Of a stretch of 64,000 nucleotides of DNA, positions 16,115 through 33,647 are shown piece after piece. Positions within the stretch are counted from its first letter, which is position 1; each line of letters begins with the position of its first letter. This stretch comes from an uncultured Saprospiraceae bacterium (lineage in GTDB: Bacteria; Bacteroidota; Bacteroidia; Chitinophagales; Saprospiraceae), in the NCBI GenBank assembly GCA_937950315.1, contig CALFDU010000040.1, positions 1-64,000 on the forward strand. The letters run 5' to 3'. The translations under genes and the position numbers were made by a program. A model generated the notes under the pieces. The model ran no database searches, was not told the origin of the DNA, and was given only the letters and a program-made list of their open reading frames with translations.

Positions 16115-16567
16115 ATGTCTCAAGCTGATACTTGCAAGCACCACTCCGCATGCCGTAAAAAGGAAAAGACATATATCTCATGGTTGCCAGCGATTTTTAT
16201 AGCTATACTTCCCAAGTGTCCTTTTTGTATCATGGCCTATTCTGGTGCCATGTCAATGTGTAGTGGGAAAATGTTTTCACCCAATGCAGATGCTTATTCT
16301 GGTTACATCATTATAGGACTTTCCTTACTTATTTTGTTCAGCATTCTTTTAAATCATAAAGGCACCAAAACTTGGATTGCAGCTTTTATTGTTTTGATAG
16401 GAATCGGTTTGTTGACCATGAGTCAATATCAGACCATGTCTGAGTCACTTTATTATGTAGCAAGTTTTCTCTTGTTTTTTGGAATCTGGTTTAACGGAAG
16501 TTTTACTTTTTTCTACAAGAGGTTTTTTGAAAGTAGAATGAAAAACAATACGTCAATTATAAATTAA
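16115..16567 (+). CDS. Cys-rich inner-membrane protein of unknown function, upstream of coxM
   Basis: A 150-residue protein with a Cys/His-rich N terminus (CKHHSACRKKE at residues 7-17) and a CPFC pair in LPKCPFCIMAYSG at about 39-51. Another Cys is near 56, and four hydrophobic segments follow (about 24-45, 70-88, 92-110, 118-138). The motifs suggest metal or thiol binding in the membrane and recall small MerC-like proteins, but no family is claimed. It ends 4 nt before coxM on the same strand, so it may belong to the cox transcript. Confidence 0.7.
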   Translation: MSQADTCKHHSACRKKEKTYISWLPAIFIAILPKCPFCIMAYSGAMSMCSGKMFSPNADAYSGYIIIGLSLLILFSILLNHKGTKTWIAAFIVLIGIGLLTMSQYQTMSESLYYVASFLLFFGIWFNGSFTFFYKRFFESRMKNNTSIIN

Positions 16568-16571
16568 AAAT

Positions 16572-17447
16572 ATGATAGCCGAAAATTTTAACTACGATGC
16601 ACCGTCCACATTGGAAGAAGCTATTGCTTTGCTGCATCAGTATGGGGACGATGCAAAAATTCTTGCAGGTGGACATAGTTTGGTTCCTATGATGAAGCTG
16701 AGATTTGCCTCTCCGACTCATCTTATTGATATCAACAATATACCAGGTCTTTCTTATATCAAAGAAGAAGATGGTTTGTTGAAGATAGGAGCCATGACCA
16801 AGGAGGTAGAAGTAGAAGAATCAGAAATCATCAAGAACAAGTATCACATTTTTGGAGATGCCACCAAGTTGATAGCAGATCCTCAAGTAAGGAACTTTGG
16901 AACACTGGGTGGAAATCTTGCCCACGGCGATGCAGCCAATGATCATCCTGCAGTAATGTTTGCCTTGGGAGCTTCGGTTGAGATAACAGGCAATCAAGGA
17001 AAGCGTACAGTACCTATTGATGAATTTTTTCATGGTTTTTACATGACTGCGGTTCAACATGGAGAAGTATTGACCGAAATTCAAATTCCAGCTGCAAGCG
17101 GTAATTATGGATCTGCTTATCACAAAGCCGAAAGAAAGGTTGGTGATTATGCAACAGCTGGTGTAGCTGCAATGGTACAAATTGGTGCCGATGGAAGATG
17201 CACCAAAGTAGGTATTGGATTGACCAATGTCAACAGTGTACCTATGCGCGCCAGTCGTTCTGAAGAAGCATTATTGGGAAGTGATCTATCAGAGGCTGTC
17301 ATTAATCAAGCTGCACAATACGCATCAGAAGATTGTAATCCATCTGCTGACTTAAGAGGAGATGAAGACTACAAAAGACATCTGGTAAAAGTGATAACAA
17401 AACGAATGCTTAACCTGGCTATTTCAAGAGCTAAAAATCAAGGATAA
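16572..17447 (+). CDS. coxM: Carbon monoxide dehydrogenase medium (FAD) subunit
   Basis: FAD-binding subunit of the molybdenum hydroxylase, passing electrons from the Fe-S subunit to the acceptor. It has 291 residues. The family's two FAD pyrophosphate motifs are present: AGGHS at residues 32-36 and TLGGN at 111-115, followed by a C-terminal CO_deh_flav domain. It is first in the order coxM-coxS-coxL, the order known for form I enzymes, and lies 1 nt before coxS. Confidence 0.93.
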
Positions 17448-17448
17448 A

Positions 17449-17952
17449 ATGAAAAAGAATATAACATTTAAAGTAAATGGGACTGAGCATTCAGTTGAAG
17501 TCGAACCGAGAGAGTTGTTGATTCATGTCATCAGGGAAAAAATTTCAATGACGGGCTCGCATATTGGTTGTGATACATCTAGTTGTGGAGCGTGTACAAT
17601 TCTTGTCGATGGAAAGTCCGCCAAGTCATGCACATTGTTGGCAGTCCAAGCCAATGGAAAAGAAATCACAACGGTGGAAGGATTGGCTACTGCCGAAGGG
17701 TTACACCCAATTCAAGAAGGATTTCACTTGAATCATGCATTGCATTGCGGATTTTGTACGCCAGGAATGATGATGCGTGCGATTGAGATGTTGGAAAAGA
17801 ACCCCAATCCCACCGAAGAAGAAATTCGCTGGGGTATAGCTGGTAACCTTTGCAGATGCACGGGATATAATAATATTGTCAAGGCAATTCAGTGGGCATC
17901 AGCAAAGATGCAGGACAAGGAATTACCTTCTACCGAGCCAGAATTTGTATAA
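17449..17952 (+). CDS. coxS: Carbon monoxide dehydrogenase small (2Fe-2S) subunit
   Basis: Electron-transfer subunit with two 2Fe-2S clusters. The plant-ferredoxin-like cluster ligands are Cys41, Cys46, Cys49 and Cys61. The second, helical cluster has Cys100, Cys103, Cys135 and Cys137 (HCGFC and LCRCTGY). The length of 167 residues is normal. It sits between coxM and coxL, and coxL starts 30 nt later. Confidence 0.95.
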
Positions 17953-17982
17953 ATCCAATTTTTAAAAAGAAAAAGTATAATC

Positions 17983-20361
17983 ATGATAAAATGTAAAACA
18001 TCTAAGGAAATTGGAGGAATGGGGCATTCTAAAAAAAGGAAGGAAGATGCCAGATTTATCCAAGGGAAAGGAAATTACGTAGATGATATAAAGTTGCCGG
18101 GCATGTTGTATATGGATATTGTCCGTAGTCCTTATGCTTACGCAAAAATCAAATCTATTGATGCTACCAAAGCATTGGAGATTCCAGGAGTTATAGCAGT
18201 CGTTACTGGAAAAGATCTCGAGAAATACAATTTACATTGGATGCCCACACTGATGTCCGATACTCAAATGGTTTTGCCTACAGATACTGTTATGTATCAA
18301 TCACAAGAAGTCGCAGCAGTTATTGCGACGGATAGGTATGTGGCTAGAGATGGGAAAGAAGCCGTTGTCGTCGATTACGAACCCATGAAACCATTGATGG
18401 ATCCATTTAAAGCCATGGATGAAGAGGCGCCTGTACTAAGACCTGATAAAGAAGGTAAAACGGACAACCATATCTGGCACTGGGAAGTGGGAGATAAAGA
18501 AAAAACAGCTGACATTTTTAATAGTGCGGATGTCGTTGTAAAGCAACAAATGCATATACCGAGAATTCATGTTGCTTCGATTGAAACATGTGGATGTGTA
18601 GCTGCCTATGATAAGGTTGAGAACCATCTTACGATGTATATGACTACACAAGCACCTCACGCTATCCGTACGGTGATTGCTTTGGTGGCAGGCCATGTAG
18701 GTTTGACGGAGGAAAAAATACGTGTGATTTCTCCAGATATAGGAGGAGGATTTGGAGGAAAGGTACCTGTGTATCCAGGTTATGTCATTGCGATAGCGGT
18801 TTCATTCCTCACTGGAGCACCGATTAAATGGATAGAAGATAGGTCAGAAAATTTACAAGCCGATTCATTTGCAAGGGATTATCATATTACTGCTGAGATG
18901 GCAGGCACCAGTGACGGAAAAATCCAAGCAACCAGATTTAAAGTTTTGGCGGATCATGGATATACCGATGCTTCTGCCAACCCGTCAAAGTTTCCAACTG
19001 GCCTTTTCTCAATAGGAACGGGGTCGTATGATTACGGAGCAGCATATATGGAAGCGGATGCGGTTTATACCAACAAACCACCAGGGGGAGTTGCATATAG
19101 ATGCTCATTTAGGGTAACGGAAGCGGTTCATGCGATAGAAAGAATGACCGACATGTTTGCCAAAAAAGTAGGCAAAGATCCGGCTCAATTAAGAATGGAA
19201 AACTTTATCAAGAAAGAACAATTTCCTTGGGCTTCCCCGACTGGATGGTCCTATGATAGTGGTGACTACCATGCTGGACTGAAATTGGCAATGGATACCG
19301 TTGGTTATGATGAACTGAGAAAGGAACAATTGGAACTTCGTAAGGAAGGCAAGCTGATGGGAATCGGAATATCAACATTTACGGAAGTGGTAGGAGCTGG
19401 ACCGGCAAAGGACTTTGATATCCTCGGAATAAAAATGTTTGATAGTGCTGAGATACGAGTGCATCCTACGGGAAAAGCCATTGCGAGATTTGGAACAAAG
19501 TCGCAAGGTCAGGGGCATGAAACTACCTATGCTCAGATCATTGCAGAAGAACTGGGAATACCAATGGAGCACATTCAGATAGAAGAAGGAGATACAGATA
19601 CGGCTCCGTATGGTCTTGGAACGTATGCAAGTAGAAGTACTCCAACAGCTGGCGCTGCGGCAGCCATGGCTGCAAGAAAACTGAGAGACAAAGCCAAGAA
19701 AATTGCAGCTCATTTGATGGAAGTCAGCGAGCAAGATCTCGAATGGGAACCAGGGAAGTTTTTTGTAAAGGGAGCACCTGAAAAATCGAAAACGATTCAA
19801 GAAATTGTTTTTGCAGCATACACCAATCATCCAGAAGGTATGGAGGGTGGATTTGAAGCAACACATTATTATGATCCGCCAAACTTGACTTTCCCTTCAG
19901 GCGCTTATATCTGTATTGTGGATGTTGATCCAGATACCTGTGATATAAAAGTCAGAAGGTTTGTAGCAATTGATGATTGTGGCAATATCATCAATCCGAT
20001 GATAGTACAAGGTCAAGTCCATGGAGGATTGACACAAGGAATTGCACCAGCAATGTATGAAGAACTGATCTACGATGAAGCCGGAAATATCTTGAATGGA
20101 ACGTTTATGGATTACCTGGTGCCGACAGCTGTCGAGTCTCCTAGTTGGGAAACAGGTCATACAGTTACACCAGCACCGCATCATCCGATCGGAGCAAAAG
20201 GGGTAGGTGAATCACCAACAGTAGGTGCACCTCCTGCGATTGTTAATGCGATAGTAGATGCAGTTCATCACTTGGGCATTGATCATTTAGAAATTCCGGT
20301 TACACCATTTAAATTATACAAAGCATTGAAAGCCAAAGGTTACTTTGGGGACAACGCTTAA
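17983..20361 (+). CDS. coxL: Form I aerobic carbon monoxide dehydrogenase large (Mo-Cu) subunit
   Basis: Catalytic subunit, CO + H2O to CO2 + 2 e- + 2 H+. It has 792 residues. The active-site loop reads VAYRCSFR with Cys at residue 374. This is the form I signature (AYxCSFR), whose Cys holds copper, not the form II AYRGAGR. Other cofactor segments are GGGFGGK near residue 255, GQGHETT near 510, and the catalytic Glu at 743 in GVGESPTVGAP. Gene order and motif together support true CO oxidation; activity is not shown by sequence alone. A strong hairpin follows the stop. Confidence 0.95.
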   Translation: MIKCKTSKEIGGMGHSKKRKEDARFIQGKGNYVDDIKLPGMLYMDIVRSPYAYAKIKSIDATKALEIPGVIAVVTGKDLEKYNLHWMPTLMSDTQMVLPTDTVMYQSQEVAAVIATDRYVARDGKEAVVVDYEPMKPLMDPFKAMDEEAPVLRPDKEGKTDNHIWHWEVGDKEKTADIFNSADVVVKQQMHIPRIHVASIETCGCVAAYDKVENHLTMYMTTQAPHAIRTVIALVAGHVGLTEEKIRVISPDIGGGFGGKVPVYPGYVIAIAVSFLTGAPIKWIEDRSENLQADSFARDYHITAEMAGTSDGKIQATRFKVLADHGYTDASANPSKFPTGLFSIGTGSYDYGAAYMEADAVYTNKPPGGVAYRCSFRVTEAVHAIERMTDMFAKKVGKDPAQLRMENFIKKEQFPWASPTGWSYDSGDYHAGLKLAMDTVGYDELRKEQLELRKEGKLMGIGISTFTEVVGAGPAKDFDILGIKMFDSAEIRVHPTGKAIARFGTKSQGQGHETTYAQIIAEELGIPMEHIQIEEGDTDTAPYGLGTYASRSTPTAGAAAAMAARKLRDKAKKIAAHLMEVSEQDLEWEPGKFFVKGAPEKSKTIQEIVFAAYTNHPEGMEGGFEATHYYDPPNLTFPSGAYICIVDVDPDTCDIKVRRFVAIDDCGNIINPMIVQGQVHGGLTQGIAPAMYEELIYDEAGNILNGTFMDYLVPTAVESPSWETGHTVTPAPHHPIGAKGVGESPTVGAPPAIVNAIVDAVHHLGIDHLEIPVTPFKLYKALKAKGYFGDNA

Positions 20362-20384
20362 TTATTAAATCAAATTTTTACGAA

Positions 20385-20412
20385 TAGTGCCGCAGCATAT
20401 GTTGCGGCACTA
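20385..20412 (+). promoter_or_regulatory. Hairpin between coxL and coxG
   Basis: A perfect 10-bp stem, TAGTGCCGCA (20385-20394) and TGCGGCACTA (20403-20412), with an 8-base loop. No T-run follows, so it is more likely a processing or mRNA-stability element, or a weak attenuator, than a full terminator. It would lower coxG-coxF expression relative to coxMSL. Confidence 0.6.
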
Positions 20413-20432
20413 CTTCAATTTTAAAAAGATAT

Positions 20433-20993
20433 ATGAATACGCAAATAGAAAAAGTGTTTGAGATAGACAAACCTATCCAACAAGTCTGGAGAAATCTTGC
20501 CAACCCTGAAGAAATTGTTGTGTGTGTGCCTGGAGCATCGATCACAGAAAAGATTGATGATAAAAATTACAAAGGTGCTGTAGTTACCAAATTTGGTCCT
20601 ATCAAAGCAAGTTATGCTGGCGATATTGAGATCGTCGAACTTGATGAGGCCAATAAGAAAATGGTTCTTAAGGGAAGAGGATTGGATAGTAAAGGGAAGG
20701 GATCAGCCGATATGATTATGAATGGAACACTTGAAGAGGATGGTGATAAAACCAAGGTAACATTCAACATGGATATTACTATCGTAGGGATGCTAGCACA
20801 ATACGGATCAAGGCTGATTAGTGATGTGTCCGATAATTTGCTTAATCAATTTGTAGATAACTTTAAAGCTAAGTTGGATGGTGAAGAAGTAGACAATACC
20901 ATGAAAGCCACTGCAGTGATAGGCACAGTAAGCAAAAGTGTTTTCGGTCGCTTTATAGATTTTTTAAAAGGAATTTTCGGTGGAAAAGCCTAA
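20433..20993 (+). CDS. coxG: CoxG-like protein (SRPBCC fold)
   Basis: A 186-residue protein of the carbon monoxide dehydrogenase subunit G family. The START/SRPBCC domain (about 1-150) begins FEIDKPIQQVWRNLANPEE and includes the typical VPGA segment. The C-terminal stretch (about 165-186) is amphipathic and Phe/Gly-rich. In Oligotropha, CoxG helps anchor the enzyme to the membrane. Its last 14 nt overlap coxD, indicating translational coupling. Confidence 0.88.
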   Translation: MNTQIEKVFEIDKPIQQVWRNLANPEEIVVCVPGASITEKIDDKNYKGAVVTKFGPIKASYAGDIEIVELDEANKKMVLKGRGLDSKGKGSADMIMNGTLEEDGDKTKVTFNMDITIVGMLAQYGSRLISDVSDNLLNQFVDNFKAKLDGEEVDNTMKATAVIGTVSKSVFGRFIDFLKGIFGGKA

Positions 20994-21825
20994 AGATTTA
21001 ATTCCCATAATTGATAATTTGGGATATGTAATTGAAGAGGATTTGGCGACGGTTTTGTTTTTAATGATGAAGCTTGAGAAACCTTTGTTGTTGGAAGGAA
21101 ATCCGGGAGTAGGTAAGACACAAATTGCCTATATACTTTCAGAGTATTTGGGTTATGATTTGATAAGGCTACAGTGTTATGAAGGTCTTGATGTCAATAA
21201 TGCCATTTATGAATGGAATTATCAAAAACAACTGCTTGCGATAAAAATTCACGAGTCGGGTGGAAAATCTGAGCAGGAAAAAGAAGACATGATTTTCGGA
21301 AAGGAATACCTCTTGGAGAGACCATTGTTGAAAGCCATCGCTTCTGATAGACCAAGTGTCTTGTTGCTTGATGAAATTGATCGATCTGATGAAGAGTTTG
21401 AAGCTTTTCTTTTGGAGTTACTTTCTGAGTTTCAGATTTCGATTCCTGAATTGGGAACGATTAAAAGTAAACATACGCCGATTGTGATACTTACGTCAAA
21501 TAGAACAAGAGAATTAAGCGATGCGCTGAAGAGAAGATGTCTTTATCATTGGGTCGACTACCCATCGATGGAGAAAGAAATGAAGATTATTAAAAAACAT
21601 CACCCAAATATTGAAGCAAAGCTGGCAGAACAAATTGCAGATTATATTCAGAAGATCAGGGAATTAAAATTAGATAAGACACCTGGAATAGCTGAAACGA
21701 TCGATTGGGCTAAAGGCATCGCTGCATTGAATGGAGACAGCAATGCTATGTACAATAGCTTATCTTGTTTGTTGAAATCAAACGATGATATCAAAAAAGT
21801 AAAAGAAGAATATTTTAGAAATTAA
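20980..21825 (+). CDS. coxD: MoxR-type AAA+ ATPase CoxD
   Basis: AAA+ chaperone which, in characterised form I systems, is needed to build the Cu-S-Mo site. It has 281 residues with Walker A GNPGVGKT at 40-47, Walker B LLLDEID at 128-134, sensor 1 LTSNRTRELSD and the sensor 2 region LKRRCLYHW. The GTG start lies within the end of coxG. It partners the vWA protein CoxE encoded downstream, as MoxR ATPases usually do. Confidence 0.92.
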   Translation: MEKPKDLIPIIDNLGYVIEEDLATVLFLMMKLEKPLLLEGNPGVGKTQIAYILSEYLGYDLIRLQCYEGLDVNNAIYEWNYQKQLLAIKIHESGGKSEQEKEDMIFGKEYLLERPLLKAIASDRPSVLLLDEIDRSDEEFEAFLLELLSEFQISIPELGTIKSKHTPIVILTSNRTRELSDALKRRCLYHWVDYPSMEKEMKIIKKHHPNIEAKLAEQIADYIQKIRELKLDKTPGIAETIDWAKGIAALNGDSNAMYNSLSCLLKSNDDIKKVKEEYFRN

Positions 21826-21837
21826 ATCTTATAAATT

Positions 21838-22017
21838 ATGTCATTAAAAGAATACGAAGAGTTAAAAGAAATAAGATTGGAAGAAGGAAAGAAAAGCAAT
21901 GCTCATTACAAAAGTGTTGATCTTCCAGGCAAGCGTAGTATGGATAAACCTGCTGACGAAGTAAGAGCAAGAATTGCTGCAATGAAAGCAGAAAGAGACG
22001 CTGCAAATCAAGGGTAA
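21838..22017 (+). CDS. Small 59-residue protein between coxD and coxE
   Basis: Opens with ATG 12 nt after coxD and ends with TAA at 22015-22017. The product is hydrophilic and likely helical, rich in Lys, Glu and Ala. It begins MSLKEYEELKEIRLEEGKK, has a central LPGKRSMDKPADEVR segment, and ends in an Ala-rich helix (RIAAMKAERDAANQG). Codon use resembles its neighbours. No family was recognised. Position in a tight operon of maturation genes suggests an accessory role in CO dehydrogenase assembly. It shares the reading frame of coxE, with only the TAA and 18 codons between it and the annotated coxE start. Confidence 0.7.
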   Translation: MSLKEYEELKEIRLEEGKKSNAHYKSVDLPGKRSMDKPADEVRARIAAMKAERDAANQG

Positions 22018-22071
22018 GCCATAAACGGATTAAAGCACTATACCGATTATTCTACTTTTGCGGAAGCATTT

Positions 22072-23166
22072 GTGGCTTTTGTCCAATTGGCTAGAACCGA
22101 AGGTTTTACTACAGGCATCCAATGCACAAAAGATACTCTGACATCGGCTTTGCACGAACTTTGGTTGGACAAAGATATTTTTGAGCATGCACTTATGTCA
22201 TTGTTCTGCAAAGAGGAAGAGGAGCGAGAAGCTTTTTCGAGTATGTATAAAAAGTTTTGGAGACATCGAGGAACGGTCATCAGTGATACTCGAGTACACA
22301 AGAATAAGAATACAGGCAATATAAGAAAAAGCAGCTCTGCGGTGATGATTGGCAAGGGAGAATCAAATCTTGATGCTTCTGCTGAAGAAACAAAAACAAC
22401 TTCTGGAGCCAATACTGATGAAACCATGAAGATGACTGATTTTTCACAGCTAAGTGAAAAACAGTCGGAAGAACTTGACGTTCTTTCAGAAAAACTTGTT
22501 CGCGAAATGAGTCTTCGAATAAAACGGAAACGTAAGAAGGCAAAAAAAGGTCAAGTGAGTATTTCTGAGTCTATCAGAAAAAATATTCAAAACGGAGGCA
22601 ACATCATCAATCTCCAAAAAGAAAACCGAAAGAAAGATAAATTTAGATTGTTGATACTGCTTGATGTAAGTGGCTCAATGGATAAATACTCTTTTTATCT
22701 CCTCAAATTCTTATGGGCACTCCGCTCTCATTTTAAACAAGTTGAAGTTTTTACCTTTAGTACCAAGTTGGTCCGTATTACAGATTTTATTTCTGAAAAG
22801 AATATGGCCTTGGCTTTAAAAATGGTTTCATTCAATGCCAAACATTGGTCCAGTGGAACCAAGATCGGTGAGTCCTTGAAGACTTTCAATGACCATCATG
22901 CCAAGAAATACCTGAATGGCAAGACTTTAACATTGATATTGAGTGATGGCCTCGATACAGGCGAACCAGAAACATTGGAAACGGCCATCAAGCAAATCAA
23001 GCTTCGATCCAAGAAATTGATATGGTTAAACCCATTGAAAGGATCAAAAGGGTATGAACCAATACAAATCGGTATGAAAACTGCATTACCATCGCTGAAT
23101 CATTTTGGTTCCGCTCATAATTTTAATAGCTTGCTTGAGCTAGAAAATATACTATCCTATGCGTAA
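22072..23166 (+). CDS. coxE: von Willebrand A domain protein CoxE
   Basis: Partner of CoxD in maturation of the CO dehydrogenase active site. In 364 residues (from a GTG) the N-terminal helical region is followed by a very basic linker (RIKRKRKKAKKG near 145-157). The vWA domain begins near 195 with the metal-site motif DVSGSMD, later T in a FSTKL context and LSDGLDTG. The GTG at 22072 is the only usual start codon in frame, but the 18 codons upstream back to the TAA at 22015 also read like protein (for example STFAEAF). The true start may be non-standard. It overlaps the next gene by 8 nt. Confidence 0.88.
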   Translation: MAFVQLARTEGFTTGIQCTKDTLTSALHELWLDKDIFEHALMSLFCKEEEEREAFSSMYKKFWRHRGTVISDTRVHKNKNTGNIRKSSSAVMIGKGESNLDASAEETKTTSGANTDETMKMTDFSQLSEKQSEELDVLSEKLVREMSLRIKRKRKKAKKGQVSISESIRKNIQNGGNIINLQKENRKKDKFRLLILLDVSGSMDKYSFYLLKFLWALRSHFKQVEVFTFSTKLVRITDFISEKNMALALKMVSFNAKHWSSGTKIGESLKTFNDHHAKKYLNGKTLTLILSDGLDTGEPETLETAIKQIKLRSKKLIWLNPLKGSKGYEPIQIGMKTALPSLNHFGSAHNFNSLLELENILSYA

Positions 23167-24133
23167 TGAATTTATCGATAAAATAAACAGTCTGAGAAAT
23201 AGCACGGAAGCTTATGCGACAGCTATGATTGTCAGGCGTAAAACACCTTCTTCTGGCAAGCCTGGAGATCAAGCGGTGATTACGGCAGATGGGCAGATCC
23301 ATGGATGGATCGGAGGAGGATGCACCAGAGGAATTGTGCTGAAAGAGGCACTACTGGCGATGAAAGATCGCAAACCAAGACTGGTGGTGATCAGTCCAGT
23401 AAAACGAGAAACAGACTTTTCGAATACAAAAATATATAGCATGACTTGTCAAAGTGGAGGAGAAGTAGAAGTGTATATCGCACCAGTCTTACCAAAACCA
23501 CAAATTGTAGTTTTTGGAAATTCACATATTGGAATGGCCTTGGCAAAAGTGGCGAAGGCAATGGATTATCGTGTGGATGTAGTACAAAATACCATCGACG
23601 AAGCGGTGTATCCAACAGCTGATAATATCTATGGGATCAATGATTTTGAAATCATCGAGGAGCATCAGAAAAGTTATACGGTTGTATGCACACAAGGAGA
23701 GGGTGATCTCGAAGCATTGGCAATGGCATTAAAAATGGAAAGCCAATATTTGGCATTTGTATCGAGTCCGATTAAGGCACAAGCGATATACACGGATCTA
23801 AGAGAGCAAGGTGTCACTTTTGATAAACTGAAAACCATAAAAAGTCCTGCTGGTTTGGATCTTGGAGCAAAACTACCGGAAGAAGTTGCCATTAGTATTC
23901 TCGCTGAAATCATCAAAAAATTTAGGGATGAAACAACAGCCCAAAATAACAACAAGGATGAGGCATTGAGTATTCCTAATAATGAGTTTTACATGAATCC
24001 AGTGTGCAACATTCCAATCAAAAAAAGCACGGCCAAGCACGTTCTTGAACATGCTGGAGAGAAAGTATATTTTTGCTGTGATGGATGTAAGGTGAGTTTT
24101 GAGAAAGAACCGACGAAGTATATTCCGGTTTAA
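23159..24133 (+). CDS. coxF: XdhC/CoxF-family maturation protein fused to a YHS domain
   Basis: XdhC-family proteins load or sulfurate the molybdenum cofactor before insertion, and CoxF is the member needed in Oligotropha. The N-terminal XdhC/CoxI domain (about 1-100) shows GWIGGGCTRG. A Rossmann-like XdhC_C domain follows (about 110-265). The last ~45 residues form a YHS domain with NPVC, FCCDGC and a final Phe-Glu-x-x-P, which can bind metal through its Cys. The fusion is notable because copper must also be inserted into form I enzymes; a metal-handling role is inference. The name coxF follows position and family. Confidence 0.82.
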   Translation: MRNEFIDKINSLRNSTEAYATAMIVRRKTPSSGKPGDQAVITADGQIHGWIGGGCTRGIVLKEALLAMKDRKPRLVVISPVKRETDFSNTKIYSMTCQSGGEVEVYIAPVLPKPQIVVFGNSHIGMALAKVAKAMDYRVDVVQNTIDEAVYPTADNIYGINDFEIIEEHQKSYTVVCTQGEGDLEALAMALKMESQYLAFVSSPIKAQAIYTDLREQGVTFDKLKTIKSPAGLDLGAKLPEEVAISILAEIIKKFRDETTAQNNNKDEALSIPNNEFYMNPVCNIPIKKSTAKHVLEHAGEKVYFCCDGCKVSFEKEPTKYIPV

Positions 24134-24180: not shown

Positions 24181-24657
24181 ATGAAGAAATTTACGCATTT
24201 AGATAAAGAAGGGAACCCGACCATGGTAGATGTGGCTTCCAAGTCAGTGACGGAGAGGGTAGCAATAGCGCGAGCAATTGTGTCAGTCGAAAAAGAGATT
24301 TTGGATTTGTTGGAAAACAATGAAATCCAGACCAAGAAAGGACCAATTTTTCAGACAGCCATTCTTGCTGGGATTATGGCTACGAAGAAAACCAGTGACT
24401 TGATCCCGCTGTGTCATCCATTGATGATTTCAAAAGCAAATGTGGATATCGAAGTTAATGAAGAAGGAAAGATTGTGATTGATTGTTTGGTGAAAGTCAA
24501 TGGTAAGACCGGTGTAGAGATGGAAGCACTCACTGGAGCAACGGTAGCAGCATTGACCATCTATGATATGTGTAAAGGGTTCTCTCACAACATTGTAGTG
24601 GAGGAAGTAAAATTAATGAAGAAAACAGGAGGAAAAAGCGATTTTGAAAGAAGCTAA
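24181..24657 (+). CDS. moaC: Cyclic pyranopterin monophosphate synthase
   Basis: Second step of molybdopterin synthesis, making cPMP from the MoaA product. It has 158 residues with the conserved MVDVASKSVTER, IPLCHPLMI, GKTGVEMEALTGA and a late DMCK segment. A near-consensus -7 box (TATCTTTA, 24167-24174) precedes the ATG by 6 nt, so an internal promoter within the cluster is possible. Its 3' end overlaps the next gene by 14 nt. Confidence 0.95.
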   Translation: MKKFTHLDKEGNPTMVDVASKSVTERVAIARAIVSVEKEILDLLENNEIQTKKGPIFQTAILAGIMATKKTSDLIPLCHPLMISKANVDIEVNEEGKIVIDCLVKVNGKTGVEMEALTGATVAALTIYDMCKGFSHNIVVEEVKLMKKTGGKSDFERS

Positions 24658-25777
24658 AAAACATACTAAGCATGTAAAGTTGACGATGCCAGTAGGTGGA
24701 AGATATCATTCCAATGAATGGGCATTGCTCGGAGCACCTTGTGGAGTAATCAATAAATTTGCTAAAGATTTGGCAAAGATTATTTCGCAAAAAAAGAAGG
24801 TAGGTTACATCGATGCAAGTCATGAGGAGGTAGAACAAGATCATCCGTATCATGTGTATTATCAGGACCGCATCAAGTACGCTCATCTTGAAACAAAATC
24901 AGCGCTTGCGCAAAAGCAAAATAAAAAACACTTTTCATCCTTGGATCTTTTGTTGGTTAATGGGAATCATTTTCATGGTGACAAACAAATCGTTTTTATC
25001 AACGAAAAGAAAAAGGAATCATTAGAAAGAAAATTGGATCGTATTACTGATATGCGAATATTGGTGGTGGAAAGTGACGGTCAAGAAATATATGATTTTA
25101 TCAAGCCCCACATCACTATGAAGACGGAAGTTTTCAATTTGTGTGATGTCGGAAGAGTTGCTGACATCATTCTCGAAGATGAAAAAGCAACAACAGCTCC
25201 ATTGAATGGACTGGTGTTGGCTGGTGGAAAAAGCCAGCGTATGGGTCATGATAAAGGAGTAATCAATTATCATGGCAAAGAGCAAAGGAGTTACGAAGCC
25301 GATCTGCTTGCTTCAAAGTGCTGTGAAGTATTTATTTCTTTGAGTGAAAGACAGGCCGATCAAGAAATTCCTGAATACAAAATTATTCAAGATACTTTCA
25401 CAGGTTTAGGTCCTTATGGAGCTATTTTATCAGCGTTCCGAGAGCATCCCAATCATGCTTGGTTGACGGTGGCTTGTGATCTTCCTTTGTTGAGTCAAAC
25501 TACCATAGATACCTTGGTTGCAAAAAGAGATCCAAGTAAAGTTGCCACCTGCTTTCATAACCCGGATACTAAATTTCCTGAACCATTGATCACCATTTGG
25601 GAACCAAGAGCCTATCCGATTTTACTAGAGTTTTTAAGCCAAGGGTATTCTTGTCCTAGGAAAGTATTGATCAATACGGATGTTGAGGAAATTGTTGTAG
25701 AGCAGGTTGAGTTTATGGAAAATGTAAACGATCCCAGCGCGTATGAAGAAATGATCCAGAAAATAAAAGAAAGCTAG
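24644..25777 (+). CDS. mobA: Two-domain molybdenum cofactor nucleotidyltransferase (MobA type)
   Basis: A 377-residue protein. The C-terminal half (about 183-377) is a MobA-like transferase with LAGGKSQRMGHDKG, joining a nucleotide to molybdopterin. The N-terminal ~180 residues (starting near WALLGAPCG) resemble a MobB-like fold that lacks an obvious P-loop; this arrangement is remembered from other Bacteroidota, not checked. Xanthine-oxidase-family CO dehydrogenases use the cytosine dinucleotide, usually made by MocA (signature LAAG), so the nucleotide specificity is unsettled. The start is TTG at 24644, 11 nt after an AGGAGG sequence (24627-24632), unusual for this phylum. Confidence 0.82.
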   Translation: MKEAKKHTKHVKLTMPVGGRYHSNEWALLGAPCGVINKFAKDLAKIISQKKKVGYIDASHEEVEQDHPYHVYYQDRIKYAHLETKSALAQKQNKKHFSSLDLLLVNGNHFHGDKQIVFINEKKKESLERKLDRITDMRILVVESDGQEIYDFIKPHITMKTEVFNLCDVGRVADIILEDEKATTAPLNGLVLAGGKSQRMGHDKGVINYHGKEQRSYEADLLASKCCEVFISLSERQADQEIPEYKIIQDTFTGLGPYGAILSAFREHPNHAWLTVACDLPLLSQTTIDTLVAKRDPSKVATCFHNPDTKFPEPLITIWEPRAYPILLEFLSQGYSCPRKVLINTDVEEIVVEQVEFMENVNDPSAYEEMIQKIKES

Positions 25778-25799: not shown

Positions 25800-26993
25800 T
25801 TATCTATAAAAATAGAAAGGATATATTTCTCCTTTCTCAAAGGTATTTTTTCCTCTTGGCAATTCTATGATTGCATCTGCTTCGACAAGATTGGCGAGGT
25901 CACCCGAGCCATTTCCTTTTTGTGGGTGCGCAATAACCTGACCTTCATCATTGTAAGAAATTTTCACTTCAAGAAAGTAGGTGAGGTCCGGTTTGAAATT
26001 TACTTCGTTGCCTAGCTTGGCATACATTGGCTTTCTGAGATTGATGCCCATTGAGAAACCTAACCAATCAACAAAATATCTATGCATGCACACAAAGGAC
26101 GATACAGGGTTGCCAGGGAAGGCAAATATTTTGCATTGTTTGTATGTGCCAAACCAAAATGGTTTGCCTGGTCTTTGTGTAATTTTGTGAAACAACTTCT
26201 CTGCACCTAGTTCTGCTAGTACCTTTGGCAGAAAGTCGAATTTTCCTTTTGACACTCCACCACTGAGTATTACTAAGTCATATTCCTTAAGATACTGTCC
26301 AAGTTTTTCTTTGATGGCTTCTTCCTCATCAATGAGGTGATCTTGATCACACTTGATGTTGAGCGAATGTAAGACTGTGATTATTCGATATACATTTGAT
26401 CTTCTGATTTGATGCTTCAAAGGAGTCGTGTTGATTGGCACCAATTCGTTGCCCGTGGAAATGACCATGGCTGTCGGAAGTTTGGCAACTACAATTTCTG
26501 CCTTACCAATACTTGCCGCGAGTCCAATTTCTGCAGAGGAGATGATGGTGTTTTTTTTGGCAACACATTCACCATTTTTTCTGTCTGATCCTTTAAAGTG
26601 AACATTCTGTTGGTTATTGACTGTGTCTACGATTAGATTGGCATAACCGTCTGTCAATTCTAAATCTTCATATCTGATGACCGTATCGCTTCCTTTTGGA
26701 AGAATGCTTCCAGTCATTACTTCAAGACAGGCATGTGCTTCTTTCAATTCTTTTTGTGGATCACCAGCCGCGGCAATGGCCTCGATTTTAAAATTTCTCG
26801 TGCCGCTGGCAAAGTCTTTAAATCTGATGGCAATACCATCCATGGTCACACGGTGATAAGGAGGAAGATCTCTATCGGTAAACCATTCTTCTTTCAATAT
26901 TCTTCCCATTGCTTGGGAAAGGGGGATAGATTCTGTACCATAATCGCCCGTGTTGTTTCTAAAGATTTCAATTGCTTCTTCTACATTTATCAT
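25800..26993 (-). CDS. moeA: Molybdopterin molybdenumtransferase
   Basis: Inserts molybdate into adenylylated molybdopterin. It has 397 residues, with the family motifs PxYxxxxMDG-like PPYHRVTMDGIA near residue 43, a TGSILP segment near 92, the Mo-insertion region STGNEL near 186, a GGVSKG segment near 258, and PGNPVSSF near 310. The stop is convergent with mobA across 22 nt. It overlaps moaA by 1 nt on the minus strand, so moaA-moeA are coupled. No separate MogA/MoaB adenylyltransferase was found in the window. Confidence 0.95.
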   Translation of the reverse strand: MINVEEAIEIFRNNTGDYGTESIPLSQAMGRILKEEWFTDRDLPPYHRVTMDGIAIRFKDFASGTRNFKIEAIAAAGDPQKELKEAHACLEVMTGSILPKGSDTVIRYEDLELTDGYANLIVDTVNNQQNVHFKGSDRKNGECVAKKNTIISSAEIGLAASIGKAEIVVAKLPTAMVISTGNELVPINTTPLKHQIRRSNVYRIITVLHSLNIKCDQDHLIDEEEAIKEKLGQYLKEYDLVILSGGVSKGKFDFLPKVLAELGAEKLFHKITQRPGKPFWFGTYKQCKIFAFPGNPVSSFVCMHRYFVDWLGFSMGINLRKPMYAKLGNEVNFKPDLTYFLEVKISYNDEGQVIAHPQKGNGSGDLANLVEADAIIELPRGKNTFEKGEIYPFYFYR

Positions 26994-27988
26994 TATCCTC
27001 CTATTGTGGTCATCGATTCAGTTACATTGGGTGATTTGGTTCTTTTTGCTTCGGCTTCGAAGCCATCTTTGTATTTTTGTCCGACTGCTTCTATGACAGC
27101 CTCTTTGATTTGTTCGTCGGTTGCTTCTGCTCTTATCAAGTCTCTGATGTTGAAAATTCCTTCATCGTAGAGACAGGTTTTGATGATTCCTTTTGGAGTT
27201 AATCGCAATCGGTTGCAAGTGCCACAGAAAGTCCTAGAGTACGCTGGAATAATTCCAAAAGAACCTTTGTGTCCAGGAATTTGATAATTCAACGAAGTAG
27301 AATTCTTTTCATCCTGAAGTTTGGTGGCCTTACCATAATGTGATTCAATATGACTTAATATTTTTTTGTAATCCCATTCTAGTTTTTGGTAGTTGGCTCC
27401 TGTGCCATTGAACGGCATTTCTTCTATAAATCTGACCGAGATGTCTTTTTCTTTTGTGAGGCCGACCATTGGGTTTAGGTCTTCGATGTTTCTGTCTTTG
27501 ATGACCACTGCATTAAGTTTCAAATTGACGTCTCTTTTGGACATTTCCTCAAAGCAATTCCATACTTTTTCAAAGTAATCTCTTCTGGTAATGTCGAAGA
27601 AACGATCTTTGTCGATAGAGTCAATACTTAAGTTGTAACTTTTGACACCATAGGAAATTAATTCGTCTAGGTGATTGAGTGTTTGGGTGCCGTTGGTGGT
27701 GATTGCAATTTTATTGATTCCTTCGATCATGCTCAATTGCTTGATGAAGTACATGATGTTTTTTCTAAGGAATGGTTCGCCACCAGTAATTCTGACTTTC
27801 GATATGCCCATCTTACTCAAGATGTGGGCAGTTCTTAAAAGCTCTTCGTAGCTCATCAGTTTGTCTTGCTTCACAAAATCAATCCCCTCATTGGGCATAC
27901 AATAGAAACATCTAAGGTTGCACTTGTCAGTAACTGCGATTCTTATGTAGTCAATGACTCTTCCGTATTTGTCTTTTAGTTGTGTCAT
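26993..27988 (-). CDS. moaA: GTP 3',8-cyclase
   Basis: Radical SAM enzyme starting molybdopterin synthesis from GTP. In 331 residues the N-terminal cluster is held by Cys23, Cys27 and Cys30 (CNLRCFYC). The GTP-binding C-terminal cluster is in FCGTCNRLRL and a later TCLY. The C terminus ends in the Gly-Gly pair needed by MoaA. It overlaps the upstream xdhC-like gene by 4 nt in a minus-strand operon xdhC-moaA-moeA. Confidence 0.96.
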   Translation of the reverse strand: MTQLKDKYGRVIDYIRIAVTDKCNLRCFYCMPNEGIDFVKQDKLMSYEELLRTAHILSKMGISKVRITGGEPFLRKNIMYFIKQLSMIEGINKIAITTNGTQTLNHLDELISYGVKSYNLSIDSIDKDRFFDITRRDYFEKVWNCFEEMSKRDVNLKLNAVVIKDRNIEDLNPMVGLTKEKDISVRFIEEMPFNGTGANYQKLEWDYKKILSHIESHYGKATKLQDEKNSTSLNYQIPGHKGSFGIIPAYSRTFCGTCNRLRLTPKGIIKTCLYDEGIFNIRDLIRAEATDEQIKEAVIEAVGQKYKDGFEAEAKRTKSPNVTESMTTIGG

Positions 27989-29076
27989 TGTTCTCTTGGG
28001 TGAATGGCTCCTTCTTTGAGTTTCAAAAATAGGCCTTTTTTGTTTCTAAATACAGCTATGATTTCAGATGCTATAGATAGTGATATTTCCTCTGGTGTCT
28101 CAGCACCGATTTCTAAGCCAGTCGGACTGTGGATGAAGTTGATATTCTCTAAATCCAAATGTTTTAATTCCTTGTCCATTTTCAGAAACCGTTTTTTAGG
28201 TCCCAACATACCAATGTATGGAGGGTTGGTTTTTATGAAATGTTGGACAATCGTCATGTCCCATTTATAATCGTGAGACATCATGACTACTGCGGTGTAA
28301 TCATGGGTTTGTATTTTTTCGTGCTCTTCAAAAGGAATGACCTTATCTACTTTTTTGACCAGTTCTTTTGCTAATTTTTTCATCCTTCCGACGACCCAGA
28401 TATCCCAGCCCAATGTGTTGGCCACACTTGCCATTGCGTTGACATCGTAATTGTCTCCTACGATGATCAATCTAGTTTCGGGTCTGACGAACTCCAGGAG
28501 TACTTTTAAATCTCCTTCATCGGATTTCAAATCAAAAATTCTTGGCGATTTTTTGGCAATGGTAGTTTGAATGGCTTCATTCAAACTACCATTATCAATA
28601 TTCAGAAAATTGAAATCTGGTTTGGTGTAATCCAACACTTGACTTTTGGCAAGATATTGACTGTCTTTGGATATGACCTTAGCGATGATTGATGGTTCTT
28701 CGTAATGAAGGATCGATCGTAAAACTTCAATCTCATTGTTTGGGTCATTTGGGTCGATGGGTGTAAGAAGAACTTCAATTCTACCATTGCAACCTAAACC
28801 CACACCGATCTGTGAAGAGTCGTCTTCCATGGTATCATACACGATGATGGCAGACTCATTTTTATAGATGGCATTCAATGATTTTTTAAGAGCGTCTCCT
28901 TCAAGACATCCACCACTGATTCCTCCTGTCCACATTCCGGTACTCTTGACGAGCATCCTTGCTCCTATGCGTCTATATGCCGATTCTTCCACACTGACTA
29001 CAGAAGCAAGTGCCACTTTTATCGTACTATGATCAATAGAATCATATTCCGAGATTATTTTTCTTATTTCTAGCAT
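27985..29076 (-). CDS. XdhC/CoxI-family molybdenum cofactor maturation protein, second copy
   Basis: A 363-residue XdhC-family protein lacking the YHS tail of the cox-operon copy. The N-terminal domain has GGISGGCLEGDA near residue 56. The Rossmann-like domain carries LIIVGDNYDVNAMASVAN near 205. A C-terminal segment reads GLEIGAETPEEISLSIASE, typical of the family. CoxF and CoxI of Oligotropha are also two XdhC-like proteins, so this may play the CoxI part. It is first in the minus-strand operon with moaA and moeA, divergent from the TauE/SafE gene. Confidence 0.88.
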   Translation of the reverse strand: MLEIRKIISEYDSIDHSTIKVALASVVSVEESAYRRIGARMLVKSTGMWTGGISGGCLEGDALKKSLNAIYKNESAIIVYDTMEDDSSQIGVGLGCNGRIEVLLTPIDPNDPNNEIEVLRSILHYEEPSIIAKVISKDSQYLAKSQVLDYTKPDFNFLNIDNGSLNEAIQTTIAKKSPRIFDLKSDEGDLKVLLEFVRPETRLIIVGDNYDVNAMASVANTLGWDIWVVGRMKKLAKELVKKVDKVIPFEEHEKIQTHDYTAVVMMSHDYKWDMTIVQHFIKTNPPYIGMLGPKKRFLKMDKELKHLDLENINFIHSPTGLEIGAETPEEISLSIASEIIAVFRNKKGLFLKLKEGAIHPREQ

Positions 29077-29115: not shown

Positions 29116-29862
29116 ATGGTTGGCTATGAAATTTCGTTCTATTTTTTCTTCATTGCAATGGTGTATTCTTCCGTTGGGTTTGGAGGTGGATCGAGTTATT
29201 TGGCCTTAATGGCCATTTTTGGTGTAGACTTCCAAGTTTTGAAGATTATTGCCTTGTTGTGTAACATAACGGTTGTGTCTGGCGGCGTGTATTGGTTTTG
29301 GAAAAGGGGATTTTTGGATTGGAAAAAGGTCCTTCCGCTGACATTGTTAAGTATACCTCTTGCTTTTTTAGGAGGCAGTATTCAACTTACCGAAAGAATC
29401 TTTTTCTTGGTGGCAGGTGCAGCATTGATATTGGCGGGAATACTTGTTTTGGTACAAAAGCAAGTACAAAACCAAAGTAAAGTAGAAAGGTCAGGTTCGG
29501 CAACAATAAATATGGCTGTAGGAGGTGGTATTGGTTTTTTGTCTGGCTTGATAGGGATTGGCGGTGGTATATTTCTTTCACCTTTTTTGCATTTGATAAG
29601 ATGGGATAAGGTTAAAGTGATCGCAGGCACGGCAAGTTTTTTTATTTTAGTAAATTCAATGGCAGGATTGGCAGGTCAATTATCCCAGGGTAATGCAATT
29701 CAAGATTGGAAGCCTGTACTTGTTTTGATATTTGCAGTATTGGTGGGAGGACAAATAGGCTCAAGATGGGGTTCAGGAAAATTGTCTCCACAAAAGGTAA
29801 GGATGGTTACAGCTGTTCTTGTATTATTTGTTGGAATAAGAATTTTTGTAAAATATTTATAA
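29116..29862 (+). CDS. TauE/SafE (TSUP) family membrane permease
   Basis: A 248-residue polytopic protein with about eight hydrophobic helices. It has the inverted-repeat glycine motifs of the family (SVGFGGGSSYLAL near 19-31 and SGLIGIGGGIFLSP near 141-154). TSUP members move sulfite, organosulfonates or other small sulfur anions. It begins an apparent operon with moaD and moaE (1 nt gap), so it may supply or remove a sulfur or oxyanion compound linked to molybdenum cofactor work; the substrate is not predictable. Confidence 0.88.
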   Translation: MVGYEISFYFFFIAMVYSSVGFGGGSSYLALMAIFGVDFQVLKIIALLCNITVVSGGVYWFWKRGFLDWKKVLPLTLLSIPLAFLGGSIQLTERIFFLVAGAALILAGILVLVQKQVQNQSKVERSGSATINMAVGGGIGFLSGLIGIGGGIFLSPFLHLIRWDKVKVIAGTASFFILVNSMAGLAGQLSQGNAIQDWKPVLVLIFAVLVGGQIGSRWGSGKLSPQKVRMVTAVLVLFVGIRIFVKYL

Positions 29863-31061: not shown

Positions 31062-33647
31062 ATGAAGAAGTATTTTCTTTTACTTATTGTTTTTGTACAG
31101 ACCAATATTTTTCTGACTGCACAGACGCAACCCAATATTCTTTTGATCATTGCAGATGATATGGGAATCGATGCCATTGAAGGTTTTGAGCTAGAAGGCC
31201 TCAACTTTGCCAATACACCAAATCTGACTGCTTTGATGGAAGAAGGGGTGGTTTATAAAAATTTTTGGTCATCACCCTTATGCACAGCAACACGCTCAAA
31301 TCTCATGAGTGGAAAATACGGAGTGAAAACAGGAGTGATGCAAGTGCCTGGAAATCTAGATCTCGAACACGAATCAATATTTAATTATTTGGATAGAGTA
31401 ACGGACAATGCGTATGCGTCTGCAGTGATTGGAAAATGGCATATTTCAAATCCAGTGAATTTTGATCATCCATTTGAACATGGTGTTGATCACTTTGAAG
31501 GAATAATGACTGGAGGGATTAATGATTATTATAATTGGAATAAAATTGAAAATGGTGAGTCGACAGAAATAAATGAATACATCACCACGCACTTGACGAA
31601 TGCCGCAATTGATTGGATTGATGGTCAAGATCAACCTTGGTTTATGTGGTTGGCACACATTGCACCACATAATCCATTTCAAGTTCCGCCTGATGATTTG
31701 TATACAGTCAATAATCCAACAACCAACCGACAAATTTACAATGCGAGCATCGAAGCTCTTGATCACGAAATTGGCAGATTGCTTGAAAGCTTGGATGAAG
31801 AAACGAGAGACAATACAGTTGTAATTTTTATGGGTGATAACGGAACACCCAATAGTGTGCTTGCTGGCTATCAAAACCAACATGGTAAAGGGTCGCTGTA
31901 TGAAGGAGGAATCAGAGTACCTTTGATCATCAGTGGCAATGGTGTTTCTCGGATGGGTGAAGAAGAGTTGGGTTTGACTCAAGTCAATGACCTTTATGCG
32001 ACGATTATTGAAACTTGTGCAAACGATTTGCCTGGTGGAATACACAATAGTTATAGTATCAAATCTTCCTTTGTTCAAGAAAATGGGATTGAGAGAAATT
32101 ATATTTATTCTGATGTGATTGATAATGGCGTTCAAGAATGGACCATAAGAAATGATGAATATAAGTTGATCTTGGATGATAACGGGACGAGGGAATTTTA
32201 TAGAGTGGTAGATGATATTTTTGAAGAAGATGACTTGATGTTGAATTTGAATCCTACGGAAGAAGCGATTATGCTTGAATTGGAAGAAGAGGCAGCTGTG
32301 ATTAGAAATGGTTGGTCGTGTCAAGATTTTATTCTTAATGGGAATGAAGTAATCATCGACGACTGTGACATGACAAGCGCCTGTGAAGAAATAGATGTAT
32401 TGAGTTTTGAAAATATTGGTTGTTGTGATTCGCCAGATGAGCCGAGTGTATACTATGAATATGAAGAAAACAACCTTAGACATATTTATTCCAATGGTTT
32501 TCCCAATCATGATTATTGTTATAATCCCAATAACATACCAGAACAATCTTATCATTATGTGAGGGTAAACAAGTCTCCGACGGTAAGTGATGAAATAACA
32601 TCCATTGTAAGAGCGAATGGTCGACCTGCAAGACATTTTGGAGTAGCCCTTAATGGAGTTTATCTTTCACCTGCTCCGGGTACGCCTTTTATTTATGTTA
32701 ATAAAAATACGGGTGAGTTTAACTGGGATTGGGTTTTTGAACCGCTGAATAATCAAGGAGATGAAGTCGGTCAAGTCAGACTTGACTGTGCAACTGCGCA
32801 TACCAATGCCAATGGCTACCACTATCATGGTGAGATGCATGAATACTTGGAAAGCGAGATGCCAGGGATTACTTCGGTTACCTCACTTGATGATCTGTAT
32901 CAGATAGGATGGGCATCGGACGGTTTTCCTATATTGTATAAATTTGGCCCTGATGCTGAAGGCAATGTCAGGGAATTGCAACCGAGTTACCGCCTCAAAA
33001 GTGGAGAGCGACCAGGTGATGGAATAGAAGCTCCATGCGGACCCTACACGGGAAAGTATACTGTCGATTATGAGTATGTGGAAGGCATGGGCGATCTAGA
33101 TGAATGTAATGGAATAGCAGCAGAAGTAGAATTGGAGACGGCTTTGGGATCTGAAACTTTTGGGTATTATTATTTGGTGACATCTACTTTCCCAGAAATT
33201 GGGAGGTGCTTAATGGGAGAAGTGAGTCTTGACTTTGAGAATTCTGCTGACCCAATTGTGGGCGTTGATAATGATGGAGATGGATTTCTTGCTGCATTTG
33301 AATGTAATGATAATGATTTTAATATCAATCCAAGTGCCATAGATATTCCCAACAATGGAATTGATGAAAATTGTGATGGTGTGGATTTGATTACTTCTGT
33401 ACATGAACTTGCGTTGAATTCTGTGAACATATACCCCAATCCAGTTACTGATCTTATTAATATTGACATAGATGGTCAGATCAATTTTAAAGCCAATTTA
33501 TATAACTCTGAGGGAAAATTGGTCTTAACTGCCACCAATAAAAAGCAACTAAAATTAATTGGAATTGCGCAAGGGTTGTATCTTCTTGAGATATTGGATA
33601 TCAAGTCTGGAGAGAAAATAAGTAAGCGGGTTGTTGTATCTTGGTAG
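31062..33647 (+). CDS. Secreted sulfatase fused to YHYH and MopE-like domains, T9SS sorted
   Basis: An 861-residue exported protein. Its signal peptide spans residues 1-20. The sulfatase domain (about 24-400) has metal ligands ADDMG at 31-35 and formylglycine site CTATR with Cys74, which fits C-x-A-x-R. A ~100-residue Cys-containing linker follows. The YHYH domain (about 500-690) contains GYHYHGEMHEYL. A MopE-type metal-binding unit (about 735-780) has DGDGFLAAFECNDND and GIDENCDG. A type IX sorting domain (YPNPVTDL to VVVSW) ends the protein. Likely acts on sulfated polysaccharides outside the cell. No sulfatase-maturating enzyme is in the window. Confidence 0.85.
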   Translation: MKKYFLLLIVFVQTNIFLTAQTQPNILLIIADDMGIDAIEGFELEGLNFANTPNLTALMEEGVVYKNFWSSPLCTATRSNLMSGKYGVKTGVMQVPGNLDLEHESIFNYLDRVTDNAYASAVIGKWHISNPVNFDHPFEHGVDHFEGIMTGGINDYYNWNKIENGESTEINEYITTHLTNAAIDWIDGQDQPWFMWLAHIAPHNPFQVPPDDLYTVNNPTTNRQIYNASIEALDHEIGRLLESLDEETRDNTVVIFMGDNGTPNSVLAGYQNQHGKGSLYEGGIRVPLIISGNGVSRMGEEELGLTQVNDLYATIIETCANDLPGGIHNSYSIKSSFVQENGIERNYIYSDVIDNGVQEWTIRNDEYKLILDDNGTREFYRVVDDIFEEDDLMLNLNPTEEAIMLELEEEAAVIRNGWSCQDFILNGNEVIIDDCDMTSACEEIDVLSFENIGCCDSPDEPSVYYEYEENNLRHIYSNGFPNHDYCYNPNNIPEQSYHYVRVNKSPTVSDEITSIVRANGRPARHFGVALNGVYLSPAPGTPFIYVNKNTGEFNWDWVFEPLNNQGDEVGQVRLDCATAHTNANGYHYHGEMHEYLESEMPGITSVTSLDDLYQIGWASDGFPILYKFGPDAEGNVRELQPSYRLKSGERPGDGIEAPCGPYTGKYTVDYEYVEGMGDLDECNGIAAEVELETALGSETFGYYYLVTSTFPEIGRCLMGEVSLDFENSADPIVGVDNDGDGFLAAFECNDNDFNINPSAIDIPNNGIDENCDGVDLITSVHELALNSVNIYPNPVTDLINIDIDGQINFKANLYNSEGKLVLTATNKKQLKLIGIAQGLYLLEILDIKSGEKISKRVVVSW

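Follow-up and report, generated by a model that had tools for sequence, protein, structure and literature searches.

Positions 16572 to 24133 of the window, the 64,000-nucleotide stretch of an uncultured Saprospiraceae genome analyzed here (part of contig 40, CALFDU010000040.1; genome size 4.3 Mb, completeness 95.65%), encode an aerobic carbon monoxide (CO) dehydrogenase cluster in the order coxM-S-L-G-D-E-F, as read from the list of open reading frames (ORFs) and their Pfam matches. Judged by sequence, this is a genuine form I Mo-Cu CO dehydrogenase operon of known kind, and its maturation protein CoxF ends in a YHS domain, a tail that was absent from an earlier description of this DNA made from its letters (hereafter the sequence-only reading). 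Taking the evidence as a whole, we favor, with moderate confidence, a form I CO dehydrogenase for which CoxF serves as a two-domain copper donor, perhaps fed by a membrane carrier.

CoxF (23159 to 24133, on the forward strand like all the cox genes) consists of an XdhC-family core (XdhC_CoxI, E 7.3e-15; XdhC_C, E 3.2e-26) and a C-terminal YHS domain of the TRASH type (PF04945) at residues 280 to 322 (23996 to 24124), which scored 38.5 bits against a Pfam gathering threshold of 30.3 (E 1.2e-9). In the alignment, Cys283 of this domain was invariant and Cys306, Cys307, Asp308, and Cys310 were nearly so. Its occurrence was determined in 74 CoxF sequences, comprising that of the window, 60 of the 63 distinct sequences from 80 loci collected by similarity to the window CoxL, seven from other genomes, and six from plasmids; L111, with an ORF running through a stretch of X, and L078 and L102, shorter than 280 residues, were left out. 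For each locus the ORF closest to the YHS-bearing CoxF of the window was taken, which may favor YHS slightly. At an E value of 0.001 (Pfam), 65 of the 74 carried YHS, six carried HMA, and three (L114, Afipia, and Roseivivax) carried neither, with some YHS domains falling below the Pfam cut-off, including that of Deinococcus (29.1 bits). All six HMA tails, in which the motif is MSCAHC or MSCQHC, matched CopZ copper-chaperone models (best E 7.7e-16, NF033795). In contrast, Pfam detected neither domain in any of 43 second XdhC paralogs, most of them from the same loci (L090, which is incomplete, L149, L150, and L152 were not in this set; Fisher p 8e-29, relatedness ignored). The core motif MxCxSxG was likewise present in 71 of the 74 CoxF sequences and in none of the 43 paralogs, Afipia CoxF having a variant of it.

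We also scrutinized 395 genomes sampled evenly from the phylum, treated as one set across searches given their equal number and same handles. A CoxF profile recovered XdhC-like proteins from 128 of them. Among the matches listed, only those of the window, G356, and G427, all form I, reached the YHS end (model positions 322 to 324), and the next-best five (354 to 375 bits) came from the other five form I genomes, G235, G107, G066, G062, and G115, in each of which CoxF carries HMA. The best XdhC listed from outside form I genomes scored 157 bits; the match in G268 extended to model position 310, through five stop codons. Neither YHS nor HMA was found in the 22 best-scoring XdhC proteins from sampled genomes without form I, the set to which the check for HMA tails outside form I genomes was confined. 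In one of these 22, probably the 557-residue XdhC ORF of L173 (892 to 2565), a genome without form I, XdhC is joined to a MobA/MocA-like transferase domain. In the plasmid collection, 19 records encoded a CoxL at least 55% identical to that of the window, the next being 41.5% identical, and the CSFR loop of form I CoxL was checked in seven of the 19. The YHS end was reached in six, namely Thermomicrobium, the haloarchaeon Natronorubrum, Deinococcus, and the betaproteobacteria Paraburkholderia and Caballeronia (two records), four of the six being also scanned with Pfam, and none of the other 41 XdhC plasmids among the best 60 of 194 records matched beyond residue 290. The tail marks form I where it is present, and not every form I organism has it.

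A fold search matched the XdhC core of CoxF to 2we8 and 3on5. In the AlphaFold model (mean predicted local distance difference test score, pLDDT, 88.6), core and tail are both predicted with confidence and the stretch between them less so (pLDDT 63-76), which would be consistent with a mobile arm. On the tree of CoxF cores, YHS occupied deep branches (Natronorubrum, Thermomicrobium, Deinococcus, and SAR324), and the HMA tail corresponded to one or two changes. In L151, the locus of G235, CoxL fell among YHS lineages (fork support 84), whereas CoxF carries HMA and grouped weakly (84/80) with other HMA rows. This mismatch suggests either exchange or recombination of coxF, or a second, independent domain swap.

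The putative membrane carrier is encoded directly upstream. An ORF at 16115 to 16567 (forward strand) terminates 4 bp upstream of coxM and could be the first gene of the operon; its product is a hydrophobic protein of 150 residues with three hydropathy peaks and a CPxC motif (LPKCPFC), which we propose as a metal (copper) membrane carrier and which matched no Pfam or NCBIfam family. Across 24 aligned rows, Cys35 and Cys38, the cysteines of the motif, were invariant and Cys7 and Cys49 nearly so. Of the 56 loci whose upstream sequence spans 2.6 kb or more, 45 have a homolog ahead of coxM in the same orientation. Over all loci with a match, the gene was within 244 bp or overlapping in 43 and at a distance of 1.2-1.7 kb in 15. 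Eight of these 15 were read (L059, L061, L064, L067, L088, L093, L095, and L100), each with a BNR-type propeller gene in the gap, sometimes beside a gene for a ThiS-like small protein; the L100 propeller protein matched Sortilin-Vps10 and YCF48 models. Five of the 395 genomes encoded CPxC homologs, three of the eight with form I and two of the 387 others (Fisher p 5e-5, relatedness ignored). In one of the latter (L154, 9972 to 12037), the homolog overlaps by 4 bp a tyrosinase gene (PF00264, E 6e-47), and tyrosinase is a copper enzyme. Like the MerC mercury importers (PF03203), the CPxC protein is a small membrane protein, and its homologs in L113, L087, L155, and L154 matched MerC at E 5.7e-5 to 0.036, below the cut-off. 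The CPxC protein had no match in the plasmid collection, pHCG3 included. Support for its role as a copper carrier is weak, though such a role is plausible.

In the mechanism that we propose, CoxD would sulfurate the molybdenum and CoxF, together with CoxE, would deliver Cu(I). The YHS tail of CoxF would capture Cu(I) and pass it to the sulfurated Mo site, probably via the core motif MxCxSxG, whereupon Cys374 of CoxL would become the protein ligand at the Mo-S-Cu site. A CopZ-like HMA tail would do the same job in some lineages, and the CPxC membrane protein would probably supply copper, or another thiol-bound metal, to the relay. In a cell that is aerobic and not autotrophic, CoxMSL would oxidize CO to CO2 and send the electrons via CoxG into the quinone pool. 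From the observed genes, motifs, tree, and domain distribution, we infer copper binding, transfer, and transport, as well as CO oxidation by the organism. The proposal combines the Oligotropha model of CoxF with the copper response of a YHS-bearing cyclase. Oligotropha mutants in coxE and in coxF produce a CO dehydrogenase without copper, and CoxF was proposed as a copper escort (PMC4240915); MxCxSxG coincides in position with the copper site suspected for that protein (PMC4240915). A phytase-based release of copper has also been proposed for Oligotropha. The mycobacterial cyclase responds specifically to Cu2+ owing to its YHS domain (PMC4626032), and it is by likeness to this enzyme that the tail of CoxF is taken as a candidate copper binder.

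Several observations weigh against this mechanism. Both kinds of domain, YHS and HMA, can serve as sensors or bind metals other than copper. YHS is lacking in 13 of the 19 form I plasmids, in which the CoxF match stops at query residue 282 or earlier; 12 of these we take to be alphaproteobacterial, and the other is Nonomuraea. L114 CoxF also has no tail, though the matched ORF may be another paralog. Among the 13 is Afipia (Oligotropha) carboxidovorans, whose CoxF has no YHS and whose enzyme is active, therefore the tail is not essential everywhere. Since the loci were sampled by CoxL similarity, much of the conservation in gene order is attributable to common descent. For the CPxC protein, the gene was absent upstream in 11 of the 56 loci and was not found in the five form I genomes with HMA, and no copper-related neighbor is evident beside the second of the two homologs from genomes without form I. 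The window protein itself did not match MerC (searched to E 1), nor did those of L048 and L122, and its low-confidence model (pLDDT 76.1) gave no fold match at E 0.001 or better. Finally, MenD matched only below its cut-off, which leaves the quinone inferred. The broader idea of a dedicated copper pathway, its clearest part lacking in the model organism, in which CoxF with an exchangeable YHS/HMA tail would be fed in Bacteroidota by a new family of small CPxC copper carriers that also serves tyrosinase and other copper enzymes, is put forward as a tentative one.

The tail might instead be a copper sensor or gate, with copper reaching the site through the CoxF core, a minor alternative to which we give some credence. 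CopZ proteins hand over Cu(I), and for this reason the replacement of YHS by a CopZ-like chaperone fits a donor better than a sensor. Afipia CoxF, however, works without the tail, and the YHS enzyme fusion that has been studied behaves as a probable copper switch (PMC4626032). Unlikely, in our view, is a tail that is only structural or serves another metal, its link to form I being an accident of ancestry. Most of the CoxF examined come from one phylum and YHS is a widely shuffled domain, as this explanation would have it, yet YHS is also found on CoxF from the form I systems of Natronorubrum, Thermomicrobium, Deinococcus, Paraburkholderia, and SAR324, the same position is filled by either of two unrelated metal domains, and neither the 43 paralogs nor the 22 XdhC from genomes without form I carry a tail.

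The identity of the enzyme itself rests on coxL (17983 to 20361), whose product has Pfam MoCoBD_1/2 domains and scored 1222 bits against TIGR02416, the form I CoxL model with a curated cut-off of 991.15 bits. Its best solved relatives are the CO dehydrogenases 8uem, 1n5w, 1zxi, and 1ffu. The sequence-only reading had claimed a form I rather than form II enzyme with the loop AYRCSFR and Cys374, and alignment confirmed the loop and the numbering of this cysteine (codon 19102 to 19104), a copper ligand by homology. In the form I/II tree, which that reading had proposed as a check, 55 CSFR rows were split from seven GAGR rows with a branch support of 100 (62 rows; the tree excludes the wrong ORF L139_x, the distant protein from contig 120, and L133, a form II row on a long branch, and L151 replaces L139). 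The window CoxL fell in the form I clade among metagenome-assembled genomes (MAGs) of Saprospiraceae and Lewinella, its closest relatives being Saprospiraceae MAGs (identity up to 96%), so score, motif, and tree agree with the earlier claim, as does the order coxM-coxS-coxL with coxD, coxE, and coxF present. A xanthine/aldehyde-type dehydrogenase or form II enzyme would belong to the same enzyme family, and CoxM and CoxS matched only the NCBIfam models of other enzymes, all below cut-off, but we reject such an identity as very improbable, given the above-cut-off TIGR02416 score, the CSFR loop, and the fully supported form I clade. Form II sequences (AYRGAGR) were encoded by second CoxL genes of L061 and L088 and, among relatives, by L012 and L013. 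The only other MoCoBD match in the genome, a protein of 724 residues on contig 120, has neither CSFR nor GAGR and a weak match to a twin-arginine translocation signal, and was rejected as a second CO dehydrogenase. Counting the window's own genome, form I scored above the cut-off in nine of the 60 relatives searched and was present in eight of the 395 genomes sampled. CoxL of L113 and L119, from MAGs labeled Acidobacteriota (Thermoanaerobaculia) and Calditrichota, nested among Bacteroidota, through either transfer or a binning error.

Contrary to the sequence-only reading, in which no electron acceptor gene was obvious, the operon contains a proposed membrane/quinone link in coxG (20433 to 20993). 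Its product matched Pfam COXG (PF06240) with 92.5 bits against a gathering threshold of 22.2 (E 2.5e-26), and residues 5-152 of 186 aligned with the solved CoxG 8uds_D (E 3e-28), presumably a mycobacterial entry; the C-terminal tail differs from locus to locus. coxG was present at 56 of the 59 loci with at least 4.5 kb downstream. CoxG has been described as a menaquinone-binding membrane protein proposed to feed the quinone pool (PMC13240472, citing Kropp et al. 2025), and of 864 marine genomes, 573 had coxG close to coxL (PMC13240472). A heme-copper oxidase is encoded in the genome, whereas searches of the 95.65%-complete assembly gave no match for the large subunit of ribulose-1,5-bisphosphate carboxylase/oxygenase (RuBisCO; PF00016), unlike what is expected of a Calvin-cycle carboxydotroph, and none for NiFe hydrogenase. 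Respiratory, non-autotrophic CO use is the natural reading of this gene content, and a role of CO as an energy supplement rather than for autotrophy would fit the lack of a RuBisCO match. The absence of the usual membrane proteins, also claimed earlier, held for the MHYT domain, which had no match in the whole genome; coxB was not searched for. CO dehydrogenase requires a cytosine-dinucleotide cofactor, and a candidate MocA-like cytidylyltransferase (113.7 bits, below cut-off) is encoded outside the window, on contig 129 of G000 (21238 to 21786).

The remaining cox genes comprise coxM (16572 to 17447; flavin adenine dinucleotide-binding subunit; FAD_binding_5, E 3.7e-52; CO_deh_flav_C, E 4.1e-25), coxS (17449 to 17952; 2Fe-2S subunit; Fer2_2, E 2.3e-31), and coxD (20980 to 21825; AAA_5, E 4.9e-13), encoding an AAA+ ATPase to which Mo sulfuration is assigned by homology with Oligotropha. 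coxE encodes a VWA protein (VWA_CoxE, E 8.9e-49, in the frame from 22018) and is placed at 22072 to 23166, its start being uncertain. The conserved N-terminus has no ATG, GTG, or TTG, the frame having TAA at 22015, ATA at 22021, and its first GTG at 22072; translation could start at that GTG or at a rare start codon near 22021, or the region could contain an assembly error. In L045, a TTG stands at the place of the window's TTA. Between coxD and coxE lies an ORF of 59 codons (21838 to 22017, forward strand) with zero matches in a Pfam search. Of the 59 loci in which the downstream order was read, just the 11 nearest (L044-L054) have homologs, the counterpart in L045 having 102 residues.

Downstream on the forward strand are moaC (24181 to 24657; MoaC, E 3e-50) and a gene for a MobA-like nucleotidyltransferase with an extra N-terminal region (24644 to 25777; NTP_transf_3, E 2.4e-26; PRK14490, 207 bits, below the cut-off of 354). 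These are followed on the reverse strand by moeA (25800 to 26993), moaA (26993 to 27988), and the second, CoxI-like XdhC paralog (27985 to 29076), which has no YHS, and on the forward strand by a TauE/SafE-type permease gene (29116 to 29862). Further along, 31062 to 33647 encodes a fusion protein with a Por secretion tail, in which a sulfatase is combined with YHYH and with a putative copper motif of the MopE type (borderline).

Form I CO dehydrogenase or coxL has been reported for Bacteroidota (PMC6794299, 2019; PMC13240472 and PMC13203968, 2026 marine surveys), therefore the headline finding of such an enzyme is not new; the Bacteroidota form I sequences of these three papers fall in mixed CoxL clades, as here. 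In contrast, the extra copper-type domain on CoxF, here and in many distant microbes, looks new. Neither PMC13240472 nor PMC13203968 uses the word coxF in its main text, and a literature search, outside of which most subscription papers lay, returned no report of CoxF or XdhC with YHS. The question that the domain bears on is an old one, as the 2014 Oligotropha work left the route of copper to the Mo-S-Cu site open, speaking of 'identifying the missing factors' (PMC4240915). Aerobic CO dehydrogenase is the enzyme of atmospheric CO oxidation, and its copper loading, unsolved, becomes testable. The presence of YHS or HMA tails in form I clusters from several bacterial phyla and one archaeon, together with their absence from the paralogs examined, points to CoxF as the donor, and the tail, a short protein module, is open to test. 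Among cultured isolates, Flavihumibacter stibioxidans, F. fluminis, F. profundi, and Niastella vici carry it.

Among known systems, the YHS of CoxF resembles that of the Mycobacterium phlei adenylyl cyclase, where a C-terminal YHS is likewise attached to an enzyme through a linker and the proposed ligands, three Cys and one Asp, are also conserved in CoxF (PMC4626032); the carrier here, however, is an XdhC-family maturation protein. The cox cluster of Afipia carboxidovorans pHCG3 shares coxMSL, coxD, coxE, coxF, coxG, and the CSFR loop, its CoxL being 59-60% identical to that of the window. The match to the Oligotropha maturation set seen by the sequence-only reading thus stands for the gene set and not for the gene order, which is coxMSL-D-E-F-G in Oligotropha, whereas here coxG precedes coxD (coxMSL-G-D-E-F). 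Proteins with MHYT domains are encoded beside cox on pHCG3 and had no match in the window's genome. pHCG3 CoxF has 280 residues and no YHS, whereas the CoxF of the window ends in one, a tail that supplies the recognized metal-binding module that the Oligotropha model lacked.

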